A DNA stretch of 38,968 nucleotides from a virus. The position numbers and the translations under genes were made by a program. Positions 8,421 through 38,443 of the stretch are shown here, piece by piece. Under the pieces are notes generated by a model. The model saw only the letters and a program-made list of their open reading frames with translations, was not told where the DNA came from and ran no database searches. The first letter of the stretch is position 1, and each line of letters starts with the position of its first letter. The stretch lies in IMG/VR virus record IMGVR_UViG_3300027842_000090, positions 1 to 38,968 of that record; one strand, given 5' to 3'.

Positions 8421-8903
8421 ATGAGCAACAAAACCCAGCGCGGCCGCTTTCAGAACGACTTGATGAAAGCCAACCACGAAATTCTTCGCCTCGGCAACAT
8501 CTGCACCCAGCAGGGCCAGCAGATTTCGCAGCTCGTGAACATGCTGTGCGCCGTACTCGTCAATCACCACAAAGGTTCCGTAGACCTCTCGCCCGAAGAC
8601 TGTCTGCGCTCGCAGGAAATGATGGTCAACGCGAAGTCGCTCGACCGGATGGGATGTGTGCGAATCAGCGCGAAGCCAGTTGGAGCGGACAAGCTGCAGC
8701 TGACCGACGCACCGCCGCCGGCTCCAGCACCTCCAGCTGCGGGCTTGGCGCTTGTGCCGTCCAAAGAATCGGCAACGCTGGAACAGGAGCCGCAGCCGGA
8801 ACCGTTGACTTGTTTCGATCCGTGGCATGCCGACGAGAACGCGATCGGGATTCGCTGCTCGTTGTGCGGGGACAGCAGGAAACTTCCGGCGGAGATCGCC
8901 TAG
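8421..8903 (+). CDS. Helical protein with a C-terminal zinc knuckle
   Basis: The start ATG at 8421 has a GGAG site about nine bases upstream; an in-frame ATG at 8376 overlaps the previous gene and lacks such a site. Residues 5-50 look like a helix or coiled coil (many Gln/Leu/Asn). A Pro/Ala-rich linker follows at about 90-125, and the last 30 residues hold C-x4-H ... CSLC, a possible zinc site. It has no recognised family. It may be an internal head protein or a scaffold helper by position, but this is a guess. Confidence 0.55.
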   Translation: MSNKTQRGRFQNDLMKANHEILRLGNICTQQGQQISQLVNMLCAVLVNHHKGSVDLSPEDCLRSQEMMVNAKSLDRMGCVRISAKPVGADKLQLTDAPPPAPAPPAAGLALVPSKESATLEQEPQPEPLTCFDPWHADENAIGIRCSLCGDSRKLPAEIA

Positions 8904-8943
8904 TCGTTTGCGATAACGCTTTTAGAAAGGAAACCTCACGGTT

Positions 8944-9735
8944 ATGCAAGCATTCTCTCGATTCGGCCGTATTGCCCTCGTCCCTCTGCTTCTCTGCGCT
9001 CTTACCTTTGCCCAGCGCGCGACCGGAAATGCAGTGATCTCGTCAAGCGGTGCGCAGGTCAGCTTTCCGAACTCGGTCGGCGGAATGACGGTGAGCGTCG
9101 AAGAGCTTATTGCCGGCGCGCCCGCGACCGTCTCAATCGTAATCTCGGGATGCAAGAACGGCGCCACCTGCGACGTGCTTGACACCTACACCACGGTTGC
9201 CAATGCGATCCGCAACCCGGCGCCGGCAAAAGCCTACGACTACTTCCTGGTCTCGGCCAGCTGGACCGGCGGTACAAGCGTTTCGGTCACCCTGAATTAC
9301 ACCTCAACCATCGCACGCAACTACAACGGGAGCGCCCCCGGCGGCACGGCGGGAGGCGACCTTTCGGGGAGCTATCCCAACCCTACGGTAGCGAAAGTGA
9401 ATGGCTCTACTCCTGGCGGAAGCTGCACCAATGCAGTCGTGACCTCCGTCAGCAGCAGCGCCGTTCCTGCGTGCACCCCCTCGCCAAGCGTGACTCGCAT
9501 CAGCGTGAACGGGGCGACCACGCTGGTGGCAGGGGACTTCACGCTGAGCGCGGGCTGGGGATCAACGGCGACTACAGCGATCACCGTCGCAACCTCCAAA
9601 GATTCAAGCGAACGTAACGACCATCACGACCGGCGGATCCGGGATCGCGGCGAATCCGACCTATACGCTGACCTTTCACGACGGCACCTGGACGCAGGTC
9701 CCGGTGTGCACAGCGATCCAAACCGGCGGCAATGA
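8944..9735 (+). CDS. Exported fibre-like protein, frameshifted near its 3' end
   Basis: The protein begins with a clear signal peptide (basic residues, then a hydrophobic core ending around residue 24) and contains GGTAGGDLSGSYPNPTVAKV, a motif typical of phage tail-fibre and collar-type proteins. From about base 9600 the frame loses protein character (charged, His/Arg/Asp-rich), while the +1 frame becomes well-formed beta-rich sequence to 9853. So a one-base insertion or deletion, or a sequencing error, near 9586-9602 has split the gene. An exported protein inside the head gene block is unusual. Possible roles are a decoration, an adhesin or a surface protein made by the lysogen. Confidence 0.6.
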   Translation: MQAFSRFGRIALVPLLLCALTFAQRATGNAVISSSGAQVSFPNSVGGMTVSVEELIAGAPATVSIVISGCKNGATCDVLDTYTTVANAIRNPAPAKAYDYFLVSASWTGGTSVSVTLNYTSTIARNYNGSAPGGTAGGDLSGSYPNPTVAKVNGSTPGGSCTNAVVTSVSSSAVPACTPSPSVTRISVNGATTLVAGDFTLSAGWGSTATTAITVATSKDSSERNDHHDRRIRDRGESDLYADLSRRHLDAGPGVHSDPNRRQ

Positions 9736-28410: not shown

Positions 28411-29652
28411 ATGAACAAACGCTCACTAAAAGTCAAAGCTGTTGCCGTCTTCGCTTGCCTGGTTTTTCTCGTGGCCTTGCTCTACGCTGGGCCGTCGATC
28501 TTATCCGTGTATCAGGGTGGAACGGGAGCATCGTCGTTCACCGCACACGGCGTGCTGATCGGAGAAGGATCGAGCGCGATCGCGGCGACTGCGGCGGGAA
28601 CCTCCGGCCAATGCTTGATTTCTAACGGAAGCTCCGCTGATCCGACTTACCAAACCTGCGCCGCAAGTGCCCACGGCATTGCTACGGCGCTCTCCTGCGC
28701 GGATGCGTCGGGTTCGGGCACGGCGCAAACCTGCACGACTTCACCCACGTTTACTCCGGCGGCGAAAGATTGCATCAACTACACGCCCGGAACGACGAAC
28801 ACGGGAGCGCTCACGCTGAACGTGAACTCTTCGAGCGCAGCGCCGGTGCAGAAGTGGCTGGGCACGGCGCTCGCATCCGGGGACATGGTTTCCGGAAAAA
28901 CCGTGACCGCCTGCTATGACGGAACTAACTGGCAAGTGATGACCATCGGCAATGCGCCGAGCGGAGGCGGAGGAACAACAACGTGGATATGCGACCCCAC
29001 GAATTATGTCTGCATGTACGATGATTTTCTTAGTTTCAATCCAGCAAGCTCTGACGGGACAATATTTTCCACAGGTCAGCTATCCTGGCGTCTTGGTTTA
29101 AGTGGTGGCGGAGGCACCAGTTTTGCGATTGATTCTGGGGCATACGGATCAATCCACCTCAACACGGGTTCCAGTTCTGGCAACGGCGATGAAATCAACG
29201 TGAGTGGCACGGGAACGCCTGGTGATGTCCCTTACAATGCGACGACCTTTGATGCCCGCATCAGATTCGCACTCCAGCAGACTACCTCTATTTCCGTGTT
29301 GCTTGGATTCGATGATCACACCACCATCGGAGAGCAGCACTCTAACTACATAGGAATCGCTTACGACACATCCCAGAGCGATACTGGATTCAAGTGTGCC
29401 GTAAAAAAATCTGGCTCAGCGACCCGGAGCTCCGTGTCGGGTACAGTTGACACTAACTATCACACGGCGCGCATACGTTCGACCTCGGCGGGCACGATTT
29501 TGTGCTCGATTGACGGAGGAACGGAAACGTCAGTGAATACCAACGTGCCAACCGCTAATCTAGTTCCTGGGCTAAGCGTGAGAACACAAACCAGTGGCAT
29601 TCGCTCCCTTAACCTCGACTATTTCTGGCACTGGTATGCAATCAGCCGTTGA
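28411..29652 (+). CDS. Tail fibre / receptor-binding protein
   Basis: The 413-residue protein starts at ATG 28411, five bases after the tip gene. Residues 1-30 form a basic start and a hydrophobic helix, so a signal or membrane anchor is possible. YQGGTGASSFTAHGVLIGEG is a motif common in tail-fibre shafts. From about residue 195 (base 28990) the sequence changes to a separate globular domain resembling a concanavalin/laminin-G-like lectin fold (FDARIRFALQQTT, YIGIAYDTS, YHTARIRSTSAGTILCSIDG), and codon use becomes visibly more AT-rich. Its last 81 bases overlap the end of the leftward acyltransferase gene. Confidence 0.7.
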   Translation: MNKRSLKVKAVAVFACLVFLVALLYAGPSILSVYQGGTGASSFTAHGVLIGEGSSAIAATAAGTSGQCLISNGSSADPTYQTCAASAHGIATALSCADASGSGTAQTCTTSPTFTPAAKDCINYTPGTTNTGALTLNVNSSSAAPVQKWLGTALASGDMVSGKTVTACYDGTNWQVMTIGNAPSGGGGTTTWICDPTNYVCMYDDFLSFNPASSDGTIFSTGQLSWRLGLSGGGGTSFAIDSGAYGSIHLNTGSSSGNGDEINVSGTGTPGDVPYNATTFDARIRFALQQTTSISVLLGFDDHTTIGEQHSNYIGIAYDTSQSDTGFKCAVKKSGSATRSSVSGTVDTNYHTARIRSTSAGTILCSIDGGTETSVNTNVPTANLVPGLSVRTQTSGIRSLNLDYFWHWYAISR

Positions 29653-30642
29653 TCGCTGCGGCAGCAGGCGCTCTCTCAGGTGAAGCGCGGGAAACTCGAT
29701 GAGTTTTGCCATCACGACACCAGCTGCGATGCACAGAAGTACGCATGACCAGAACGAAACAAAGCAATCGCCTCGCAGCCAGCGCACGATCGGAAGATGC
29801 CAGATGTAAATCGAATAGGAGTATCGCCCAACACTGGCCAGAGGCCCGAGCAGTTTCCAGGGTTGGCGCGGAACCGCCCATGCTACGAGAAGAGAAAATC
29901 CGCACATTAAAAATGTGATTCCCACTCCCTGCATCAGTCGGGTATGTTCCTCGAAGATGAAAGCCGGAAGAGGGCATACTGCCAAGATCGGCATCCATCG
30001 CCAGTTGCTCAGTCTCGTGAATATTTGTTGCCGGAAGTGAAACCAGTAGCCAAGTGCAACTCCGCAGAAAAGGCTATCGATGCGTAGGTGGGTTTGAGAG
30101 AGCACCGGGCTGGTGCCGAGGGGCGTCAGCACACGCATGGTTAAACACGCGGCCATCAGTACCGCACAAATCCCGGGAATGAAGTGCAACCGGTTCTCTC
30201 CCTGGATGAGCCACCAGAGCAGGAGCGGGAGCATTAAATAGAAGTGCTCTTCGACGCACAGCGACCAGGTGTGCGAAGTGATGTCCGGTCCGCCCCAGTA
30301 GTTTTGCAGGAAAAGCGACCAGAACGCAAAAGCCTTAACGACAATCTTCCACGACAGCCCATGCCAGAGAGCGACCGCTGACACCGCGACGATGAGGGCA
30401 TAGAACGACGGCCAGATTTTGAGTCCTCGGCGAAGAATGAAACGATCGATATTCAGGTCGCCGTTCGCTTTGTATTCCTGAAAAAGAAGGCTTGAGACGA
30501 GAAAGCCGCTTAGCACGAAGAAAAGATCAACGCCGATCCAGCCTGCCCGATTCCACACGTGGTAGTAGGTCAGATGGTTGCCAAAAACCAGCAGAATGGC
30601 CACGCCGCGCAGCACGTCAAGAGCTTGATTACGGGAGTTCAT
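29572..30642 (-). CDS. Membrane acyltransferase, probable surface-modifying conversion enzyme
   Basis: The 356-residue protein is an acyltransferase-3 family member (OafA/YrhL type). Motifs include the N-terminal ALDVLRGVAILLVFGNHL with its conserved Arg and His, then GWIGVDLFFVLSGFL and WSLCVEEHFYLMLPLL. It has about ten membrane segments. Such enzymes move acetyl or other acyl groups onto O-antigen or other surface sugars; in phages they can change the lysogen surface and block other phages. The start ATG overlaps the stop of the small upstream gene (ATGA), so I prefer it to the GTG at 30672. It runs against the phage late genes. Confidence 0.85.
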   Translation of the reverse strand: MNSRNQALDVLRGVAILLVFGNHLTYYHVWNRAGWIGVDLFFVLSGFLVSSLLFQEYKANGDLNIDRFILRRGLKIWPSFYALIVAVSAVALWHGLSWKIVVKAFAFWSLFLQNYWGGPDITSHTWSLCVEEHFYLMLPLLLWWLIQGENRLHFIPGICAVLMAACLTMRVLTPLGTSPVLSQTHLRIDSLFCGVALGYWFHFRQQIFTRLSNWRWMPILAVCPLPAFIFEEHTRLMQGVGITFLMCGFSLLVAWAVPRQPWKLLGPLASVGRYSYSIYIWHLPIVRWLRGDCFVSFWSCVLLCIAAGVVMAKLIEFPALHLRERLLPQRSTADCIPVPEIVEVKGANATGLCSHA

Positions 30643-30824
30643 TGATGGCAATTTAGTTGCGAAGTCCAGCACTCGGCCGATGCAGCCACATCCTGAGAGA
30701 GCGAACCAGAGCTGGCGACAGTCGCGAACAAAAGGAGCATGGTCAGCAGAATGATTTCAACCAACCCGACGCGATGCGTCTCTTCGCGGTGATGCTCGAC
30801 GGGGGATTGGTCGTGACTCGGCAT
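30639..30824 (-). CDS. Small membrane protein coupled to the acyltransferase
   Basis: The 61-residue product has a charged N-terminal part (about 20 residues, His/Glu-rich) and one membrane helix (VEIILLTMLLLFATVASS) followed by a polar end with two cysteines. GGAG lies six bases before its ATG. Its stop overlaps the acyltransferase start (ATGA), so both are made from one message. A shared promoter with a palindrome lies just upstream. It may be a partner or regulator of the enzyme, by context only. Confidence 0.6.
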   Translation of the reverse strand: MPSHDQSPVEHHREETHRVGLVEIILLTMLLLFATVASSGSLSQDVAASAECWTSQLNCHQ

Positions 30825-30827
30825 TAT

Positions 30828-30864
30828 GCACTCCGGTGTACACCACGGTACACGCTCACGTCAA
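30828..30864 (-). promoter_or_regulatory. Leftward promoter with palindromic operator, copy 1
   Basis: On the minus strand TTGACG (30859-30864) is followed after 16 bases by TGTACA, which lies in the perfect palindrome GGTGTACACC (30835-30844). GGAGTGC and the start codon follow directly. The same module, with the same spacing, is found at 31148-31184. The palindrome over the -10 box suggests a dimeric repressor site. Confidence 0.6.
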
Positions 30865-30985
30865 TATGCAAGATTTTGCGGCCTGAACAGGGGAATCGAG
30901 CAGCGATCGGGCAGCTAGCGCAGTCTGCCATCCGAGAGAGCGGCGCGCACGAAAAAGTGAGTTTTGTTACGAAAACGGAACAGGA

Positions 30986-31147
30986 CTAGCGAGCGGGCTT
31001 GTGTTTCTTAGCTTTGGGGCGGTTCCAGTAGGGTGATTTGCACTTCGCGCAGCGGGGGGGAATGTGATCCGACTTCCACTTGTGGCCACAGACCTCACAG
31101 GTGCATTGATAACGCTTTTCGACAACAGTCTTGACGCTCACTGGCAC
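30986..31147 (-). CDS. 53-residue zinc-ribbon protein
   Basis: Read leftward from GTG 31147 (or the second GTG at 31141, which is better spaced from GGAG) to TAG at 30986. The product has CTCEVC and CAKC about 15 residues apart, aromatic and basic residues between them, and a Lys/Arg-rich tail (WNRPKAKKHKPAR). It looks like a nucleic-acid-binding zinc ribbon of the kind that starts host HTH- or ribosome-associated proteins. It is expressed from its own promoter (31148-31184). It is short enough to be missed by common gene finders. Confidence 0.65.
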   Translation of the reverse strand: MPVSVKTVVEKRYQCTCEVCGHKWKSDHIPPRCAKCKSPYWNRPKAKKHKPAR

Positions 31148-31184
31148 GCACTCCGGTGTACACCGTAGTGCTGGAGGATGTCAA
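31148..31184 (-). promoter_or_regulatory. Leftward promoter with palindromic operator, copy 2
   Basis: TTGACA (31179-31184, minus strand) and, after 16 bases, TGTACA within the palindrome GGTGTACACC (31155-31164). The 17 bases GCACTCCGGTGTACACC read on the plus strand are identical to copy 1. The transcript would begin only a few bases before the start codon, so a very short leader is expected. Confidence 0.6.
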
Positions 31185-31260: not shown

Positions 31261-31608
31261 TCATGGCTTATGATTGGCCGCTTTCTCGACTGCTTCGCTC
31301 ATCAGCTGCTTGCAATCGGCATCGTTGATGTGGAACTTCTTGCAGGAGCCGAACAGACCGTACAGACATTGCGCGGTGTTTGAGGAAACGGAGCACACCT
31401 TCACGCCGGTGTCCATCAGATCGTGCGCAGCCTTCCACTCGTATTCATTGGCGGTCGACCTGGTCGTGTACCAGCCGTAGAGACGGGCTGCGCCGAAAGC
31501 CAATCCGGCGGCCAACAGAACGCCTAGCGTGATTTGCAGCACCAGCTTCACAAGCGACTGAACTCTACCCCAGCTGCTCACCTCCCGACAAGCTGAAAAG
31601 TTCTGCAC
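31261..31608 (-). CDS. Membrane-anchored hypothetical protein
   Basis: The 115-residue leftward protein starts at GTG 31608, eight bases after AGGA; a TTG at 31614 is an alternative. After about 20 residues there is one strong membrane helix (LVLQITLGVLLAAGLAFGAA), then a soluble region with five cysteines (VCSVSSNTAQCLYGLFGSC, and later DADCKQ) that could lie outside the membrane. It is divergent from the endolysin gene, only 28 bp away. It might take part in lysis control or superinfection exclusion, but there is no family match. Confidence 0.6.
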   Translation of the reverse strand: MQNFSACREVSSWGRVQSLVKLVLQITLGVLLAAGLAFGAARLYGWYTTRSTANEYEWKAAHDLMDTGVKVCSVSSNTAQCLYGLFGSCKKFHINDADCKQLMSEAVEKAANHKP

Positions 31609-31636
31609 TCCCAAGGTCCTGAGAAAGCGGACATTT

Positions 31637-34059: not shown

Positions 34060-34091
34060 TCTTCCCAGCACCTTTTCTGTGGCACCGACTT

Positions 34092-34109
34092 CGTTTTGCG
34101 GATTAGTAT
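34092..34109 (+). promoter_or_regulatory. 18-bp repeated promoter-like motif, copy 1
   Basis: CGTTTTGCGGATTAGTAT occurs here and identically at 35866-35883, each just upstream of a small gene. TAGTAT could serve as a -10 box. The 10-mer TGCGGATTAG inside it occurs a third time at 37946-37955 near the attachment site. Confidence 0.5.
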
Positions 34110-35824: not shown

Positions 35825-35865
35825 AAAGTCATCTACCCCAACCCACTTCCTGATTGCAAATTCTC

Positions 35866-35883
35866 CGTTTTGCGGATTAGTAT
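35866..35883 (+). promoter_or_regulatory. 18-bp repeated promoter-like motif, copy 2
   Basis: Identical to 34092-34109. Here TTGCAA at 35854-35859 precedes the -10-like TAGTAT by 18 bases, supporting a promoter. It ends nine bases before the ATG of the AT-hook gene. Confidence 0.5.
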
Positions 35884-37784: not shown

Positions 37785-38004
37785 ACGACTTTAGGTATAA
37801 CTAAAGCGGGGAATTCCGCTATAGAACCGTCGAAGCTCCGCGCGCTATAGCTGCCCGGAGAACCGTCATAGAACCGCCGAAGGGGGATTTTTGTGCCTTG
37901 TAAGTGACGAAAGAACAACGACTTTCGTAATCGGTTTCGCAAACCTGCGGATTAGGAATCCGAGGGTCTGTGGTCATGCTTACGACTTTCACCAGAGAAC
38001 CGTC
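37785..38004 (+). repeat. Repeated short motifs between integrase and attachment site
   Basis: ACGACTTT occurs three times (37785, 37918, 37982) and AGAACCGTC three times (37823, 37859, 37996), with a fourth near-copy at 37870 (AGAACCGCC). Such clusters beside an integrase gene are typical of arm-type integrase or accessory-protein binding sites. The region 37785-38239 has no convincing gene; a weak 43-codon frame from TTG near 38086 to TGA near 38217 is the best candidate. Confidence 0.55.
37949..37967 (+). other. tRNA anticodon-arm-like sequence near the attachment site
   Basis: GGATTAGGAATCCGAGGGT matches 16 of 19 bases of 38240-38258 in the tRNA remnant, and the three differences fall exactly in the anticodon position. 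It is not followed by a T-arm, so it is not a gene. Confidence 0.5.
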
Positions 38005-38239: not shown

Positions 38240-38287
38240 GGATTTCTAATCCGAGGGTTGCAGGTTCAAGTCCTGCCGCGCCTACCA
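38240..38287 (+). other. attR candidate: 3' part of a tRNA-Arg(TCT) gene
   Basis: From GGATTTCTAATCC the sequence has a TCT anticodon region, a full T-arm (GCAGG-TTCAAGT-CCTGC), the 3' acceptor strand and an encoded CCA ending at 38287. The 5' acceptor strand and D-arm are missing upstream. This is what remains on one side after integration into a tRNA gene; the integrase lies next to it. Confidence 0.7.
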
Positions 38288-38443
38288 AGTTCGAACCGCG
38301 CCTTCTGCGCGAGGCTCGCCTTTCTCTTCCATCTGGCCGAGTCGCACGTGGTCTCCGCTCTCTCATAGTCCGGCACAGCGGTTCAGCAAGATGGCGCATT
38401 TTGGCGCTTTCACCCAACCAGCGTTTCCCACCACAATTTTTTC

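Follow-up and report, generated by a model that had tools for sequence, protein, structure and literature searches.

A duplicated, predicted leaderless promoter module with an overlapping dyad, linked to small zinc-ribbon genes, in a prophage of a probable acidobacterial host

The repeated module and its prophage setting

Two leftward transcription units in the virus record analysed here are preceded by the same short sequence, which raises the question of where their transcription would begin, what would control it and what the two copies have in common with related genes elsewhere. The window, by which we mean the whole record of 38,968 bases, is an incomplete prophage. The 17-nt sequence GCACTCCGGTGTACACC occurs in it exactly twice, at 30828-30844 and 31148-31164, 320 bp apart and read leftward in both cases, within a pair of 38-nt sequences that are 74 % identical and end in GTCAAT. 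The palindrome GGTGTACACC likewise has exactly two copies in the 38,968 bases, and 15 nt lie between the end of TTGAC and the palindrome in both modules. The initial annotation had described two leftward modules in which TTGAC(A/G) is followed after 16 bp by TGTACA, and this spacing is literally as stated. Scanning the whole window for TTGAC-N16-19-TANNN(T/C)-N5-10-(A/G)TG returned exactly the two module sites, against a mean of 0.475 sites in 40 dinucleotide shuffles, two of which reached two sites. Chance is far from accounting for the repeat and its common offset, and two other phages, L004 and L005, have kept this element too.

A second record, IMGVR_UViG_3300005542_000011 (46,584 bases; G007), is identical to window positions 2-28791 and adds 17.8 kb on the left, where it reaches attL with an intact tRNA-Arg(TCT) gene; the promoter-to-start scan found one unrelated site in these left 17.8 kb. 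The 49-bp attR core in the window (38240..38288, plus strand) repeats the 3' end of that tRNA gene and is identical in the intact copy, which puts the prophage at about 56 kb. The tRNA-Pro gene right of attR has matches in acidobacterial genomes that reach 100 % over 80 bases, and acidobacterial genomes also hold relatives of the zinc-ribbon gene described below; judged from this one tRNA and these relatives, the host is probably an acidobacterium. The reverse complement of G007 contains an ORF that resembles an acyl carrier protein by eye (8742-8954, in the early region of the prophage) and a long ORF with many ALDARAARDARDA-type repeats (1203-2840). The window also holds a second repeat, CTTCGTTTTGCGGATTAGTAT, at 34089-34109 and 35863-35883 (20/21 identical), before two rightward ORFs; it ends in a -10-like TAGTAT and has a partial copy, GCGGATTAG, near 37948.

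The right-hand module, P1, precedes a 53-aa zinc-ribbon gene (30989..31147, minus strand; stop codon 30986-30988), whose GTG start at 31147, predicted to be leaderless, aligns with the ATG of L004. Upstream of P1 is a 117-aa ORF (31261..31614, minus strand), and by eye a similar small ORF occupies the same place in L004. The left-hand module, P2, precedes a 61-aa ORF (30639..30824, minus strand) with one likely membrane segment and no match in family searches, which would be the first ORF of the P2 transcript. Its TGA overlaps the ATG (at 30642) of an acyltransferase gene (29572..30642, minus strand; Acyl_transf_3; PHROG O-acetyltransferase) in the sequence ATGA at 30639-30642, and the acyltransferase would be translated by stop-start coupling to the small ORF. 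In mycobacteria, small ORFs are coupled to the gene behind them by overlapping stop and start codons more often than expected (PMC4633059). The annotated assignment of the modules to an acyltransferase pair and the zinc-ribbon gene thus survives as two transcription units, the pair being the 61-aa ORF plus the acyltransferase. To call these separated lysogenic genes was too strong, as the units are adjacent and in tandem. A phage moron would be expected to have a promoter and a terminator of its own and to run opposite to the late genes around it. The two units sit, leftward and with their own promoters, between rightward tail and lysis genes, and terminator signals there did not rise above chance.

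In the viral collection the 53-aa protein is most similar to its relatives in L004 (77 %) and L005 (72 %). Both carry GGTGTACACC at the window's distance of 7 nt from the zinc-ribbon start codon, and in L004, as in the window, a second copy lies beyond. A scan of the viral collection with the full element returned six contigs, four encoding a zinc-ribbon gene directly behind it and two looking like chance. Searches of PHROGs, NCBIfam and Pfam gave no confident family for the protein, and no zinc-ribbon match was found among named phage records. The apparent invariance of the CAKCKSPY block is partly due to its use as a search seed. Variants of the zinc-ribbon arrangement were also observed: in L008 (4875-5099) a single leaderless-type promoter precedes a 269-aa HNH ORF that shares part of its sequence, in another frame, with a zinc-ribbon ORF, and L107 has a similar pair, whilst L113 and L115 have an N-terminal zinc ribbon in proteins of 116-122 aa, with a possible winged-helix part and a conserved 175-aa gene after them.

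Several further matches were set aside. The 17-mer itself was found in the viral collection only in L003, inside coding sequence (TPVYTG), a coincidence; matches in L063, L064, L069 and L071-L074 look like chance and lie mostly in coding sequence, and the L068 match belongs to a sequence present twice in one genome. In a Magasanikbacteria genome (L070, position 3536), GGTACACC and GGTGTACAC repeats occur in the leader of a gene resembling an antitoxin, a similarity that is probably convergent.

Promoter architecture and the predicted start of transcription

Both modules have a -35 box on the minus strand, TTGACA in P1 (31179..31184), which is kept in L004, L005 and 16 homologous genes, and TTGACG in P2 (30859..30864). 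The initial annotation had placed the -10 box at TGTACA, a sequence in which the two best-conserved positions of such a box do not have their A and T, and homologues instead keep TACACC or TACACT 16-18 bp from the -35 box. The -10 box is more likely TACACC, with an 18-bp spacer, at 31155..31160 in P1 (minus strand; 7 nt before the start codon, homologues having TACACT, TATACT or TATATT there) and at 30835..30840 in P2 (minus strand; 10 nt before the ATG). Compared with the sigma-70 consensus (TTGACA, 16-18 bp, TATAAT), the -35 boxes and the 18-bp spacer fit and TACACC matches at 3/6 positions. A simple sigma-70 scan requiring T at position 6 of the -10 box picked up neither module; homologues have TACACT or TATACT. 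Just upstream of the P2 -35 box, GCAAAATCTTGCAT (30866..30879, minus strand) is identical in L004 and is a possible activator or UP-type element.

This architecture recurs at zinc-ribbon genes. Sixteen of them, from phages and acidobacterial genomes and in 15 of the 31 loci examined, have TTGAC-N14-20-TANNN(T/C)-N4-10-(A/G)TG in frame at their own start. In 491 kb of strand sequence the pattern was otherwise matched 23 times, and the P2 copies account for two of these matches. Of the 19 promoters listed, 16 have their -10 box 6-7 nt from the start. In distant homologues the palindrome fades and the promoter stays (TTGACA, 16-18 bp, TACACT/TATACT/TATATT, 6-7 nt, ATG). Judged by these homologous promoters, TACACC is the likely -10 box and transcription is predicted to begin at the start codon. 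The architecture is also that of the presumed host group, in that five acidobacterial genomes gave 26 matches to TTGACA-N15-18-TANNNT-N6-7-ATG against one for the reversed control. A survey that recognized leaderless genes by a similar criterion, TANNNT some 12 bp ahead of the start, put their share in Acidobacteria at 13.3 % (PMC3160421). Counted from the first T of the -10 box, the start codon of the zinc-ribbon gene is 13 bp away, that of the 61-aa ORF 16 bp and that of most homologues 12-13 bp, consistent with the spacing of about 12 bp that marks leaderless genes. The window's TACACC has C where the leaderless TANNNT has its last T, which homologues retain; this departure, and the 10 nt between the P2 -10 box and its ATG, speak against the leaderless reading.

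As the -10 box is only 7 nt (zinc-ribbon gene) or 10 nt (61-aa ORF) from the start codon, the mRNAs should be leaderless or nearly so, and the earlier expectation of transcripts with almost no leader is supported by this distance. Transcripts starting at or near the start codon would be translated without a Shine-Dalgarno leader. Leaderless translation in mycobacteria needs no more than an ATG or GTG at the 5' end of the transcript (PMC4633059).

The dyad, its candidate regulators and competing readings

In P1 the predicted operator is AGCAC-TACG-GTGTACAC-CGGA-GTGCGT (31146..31172, minus strand), recognized from its inverted repeat and from alignment with L004; its inner 24 bp (31148-31171) form an imperfect palindrome (inverted repeat, 93 %). 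The predicted P2 operator is TGTAC-CGTG-GTGTACAC-CGGA-GTGCAT (30826..30852, minus strand). Nearly the whole promoter is kept between the window and L004 at P1. At P2, the blocks GCAAAATCTTGCAT, TTGAC, TGYAC, GGTGTACACC and GTGCAT are kept and the intervening bases have changed, a pattern that delimits the predicted operator as TGYAC-N4-GTGTACAC-N4-GTGCAT, with three dyad centres about 11 bp apart. GGAGTGC, which the initial annotation saw as leading into the start codon, forms the right arm of this dyad. Relatives have AACGTGC or TGCGTGT in its place, which argues against a conserved ribosome-binding site. Since the dyad lies mostly upstream of the predicted transcription start, a role as a DNA site is likelier than one as an RNA hairpin. 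It covers the -10 box and spacer of the zinc-ribbon gene, as in autoregulated repressor promoters of the lexA and acuR type.

The modules might be nothing beyond a duplicated strong leaderless promoter, with the palindrome a by-product of CACC and a GTGTA before the -10 box, and no specific regulator involved. Several homologues (L023, L024, L026, L117 and L127) do show the architecture without a clear dyad; at L024 (position 2234) a leaderless-type promoter with a different dyad (AACGGTTACA / TGTAACCGTT) was observed before a 67-aa ORF. We scored dyads by taking as right arm the six bases ending with the TA of the -10 box and counting the best left-arm pairing; the promoters are related and hence non-independent, so that the resulting values are guides, not probabilities. 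The 19 zinc-ribbon-linked promoters scored 72 against 56.4 +/- 3.4 in shuffles (0/3000), whereas no dyad was evident in 25 host leaderless promoters (76 against 73.3 +/- 3.8; 806/3000 shuffles). Without the GGTGTACAC subgroup the excess was weak, 41 against 36.0 +/- 2.5, with 101/3000 shuffles reaching 41. GTG stands directly before the -10 box in 12/19 zinc-ribbon-linked promoters compared with 1/25 host leaderless promoters. Together with the block-wise conservation of both outer arms between the window and L004 P2, this excess makes a promoter without a dedicated regulator fairly unlikely.

We consider it probable, on the basis of these sequence comparisons, that each module combines a leaderless sigma-70 promoter with an overlapping dyad operator, and that one regulator, likely a local one, serves two adjacent accessory units. 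Each promoter (TTGACA/G, 18 bp, TACACC) would produce a transcript beginning at the start codon or within about 3 bases of it. The operator would cover the spacer, the -10 box and the start site, so that RNA polymerase would be kept off by a dimer bound there, or by two adjacent ones. Under this arrangement a single regulator would control two accessory units of the moron type, one being the zinc-ribbon gene and the other the 61-aa ORF with the acyltransferase, both presumably expressed in the lysogen. The earlier proposal of one dimeric regulator for both modules stands in so far as the dyad would suit a dimer and two units use it; its placing of that regulator at the immunity region finds no support in the left 17.8 kb, which has no copy of the element.

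The leading candidate for a local regulator is the zinc-ribbon protein itself, acting as an autorepressor. It is the simplest candidate because the non-chance matches to the full element in the viral collection adjoin zinc-ribbon genes, and leaderless genes that regulate themselves, such as acuR, offer an analogy. That it represses both modules is plausible, if somewhat short of probable, as a 53-aa zinc ribbon without a helix-turn-helix is an unusual DNA-binding repressor. Its predicted structure, a monomer only, has a middling pLDDT of 73, and the best solved-structure match of the zinc-ribbon profile was PF0610 (2gmg; zinc ribbon only, E 0.001), which provides a lead to the role of the protein rather than a test of it. 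More tentatively, zinc ribbons of about 50 aa without a helix-turn-helix could form a new family of DNA-binding repressors on mobile elements that are expressed without a leader and regulate themselves. Their operators would overlap the start codon, and copies of these could bring captured accessory genes under the same control.

A host regulator such as LexA could instead bind the palindrome and tie the accessory genes to a host signal, and the promoter type is indeed the host's own. We regard this as clearly unlikely. TTGAC-N13-15-GGTGTACAC had 10 matches in 396 acidobacterial genomes against 6 for the reversed control, arguing against a host-wide regulon, and only the match in G292 adjoins a zinc-ribbon gene. 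The repeat of acidobacterial lexA is TTCGC-N6-TTCGC, not GTGTACAC, and this box is absent from both modules, which led us to reject LexA control. NrdR genes were located in six genomes.

The cargo behind P2 appears to change while the promoter stays. In L004, P2 leads into the first codons of an acyltransferase (MATRNQSLDVLR, cf. MNSRNQALDVLR); the gene breaks off there, and an unrelated ORF of 136 aa comes next, again with ATGA. This could mean that the repeated module is chiefly a recombination boundary, with accessory genes exchanged behind a standing promoter. As the chief explanation it is improbable, since it leaves the conservation of the dyad blocks unexplained; it is compatible with the promoter-operator reading rather than opposed to it. 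We find it very improbable that the GGAG of GGAGTGC is a Shine-Dalgarno sequence served by ordinary leaders from upstream promoters. Its spacing of 6 nt to the ATG of the 61-aa ORF would suit that role, but the aligned zinc-ribbon start is only 3 nt away, and GGAG is replaced by AACG in L004 P2 and TGCG in L005, whereas GTGYAT is kept. Least probable is control of both modules by the prophage immunity repressor, which a lysogenic-conversion type gene such as the O-acetyltransferase might suggest: the left 17.8 kb, scanned as sequence with the repressor gene not located, has no GGTGTACACC, GTGTACAC or TRCAC-N4-GTGYA (≤1 mismatch), the window has no further exact GTGTACAC, and the expected copies at the immunity region are thus missing from the rest of the prophage.

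Known systems and implications

A leaderless promoter with an overlapping operator is of a known kind. In the acuR-acuI-dddL operon of Rhodobacter sphaeroides the transcript starts at the AUG of the first gene and an inverted repeat, tested as operator by mutation, overlaps the promoter, an architecture predicted in other taxa as well (PMC3017554). The modules share the start-codon transcript start, as predicted here, and the promoter-overlapping inverted repeat, and acuR, the first gene, encodes its own repressor; AcuR, however, is a TetR-family protein, whereas the regulator here is a candidate only. The acidobacterial lexA genes (L141-L146) offer an architectural precedent from the same phylum, with a -35 box, a TTCGC-N6-TTCGC repeat within the promoter spacer and a start codon that directly follows the -10 box in most of the genomes read; they differ in having a direct repeat instead of the GTGTACAC dyad and in encoding another protein family. 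Lambda cI and Tn1721 tetR are named leaderless mRNAs (PMC9938897, PMC3160421) and resemble the present case in the leaderless expression of a mobile-element gene, but they encode known repressors, whilst the zinc ribbon is a candidate only and lies in an accessory region. In CRISPR-associated transposons, CvkR and cas12k are leaderless mobile-element genes with a palindromic motif at a promoter; CvkR, which is MerR-type, did not bind its own promoter, so a leaderless mobile-element regulator need not do so (PMC9938897). The SAS/ESAS elements of Cluster K mycobacteriophages are short repeats directly before several start codons, some with inverted repeats (PMC3203893). They belong to other phages, and the 17-bp ESAS repeats have a variable spacer; the two cases were compared by description only. 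Literature searches for GTGTACAC as a bacterial operator, and for zinc ribbons with leaderless expression in prophages, had nothing relevant among the results listed.

What is new is the recurring link to zinc-ribbon genes and the reuse of the module for cargo genes. These results describe a widespread and previously undescribed family of very small zinc-ribbon genes, in phages and bacteria, that is tied to a fixed leaderless promoter design, and the module provides a concrete candidate operator. They suggest how a temperate phage may add an accessory gene under existing control, namely by carrying its 40-bp promoter-operator twice. They suggest further that, in a phylum that has received little study, small phage genes may share the leaderless habit of their host.
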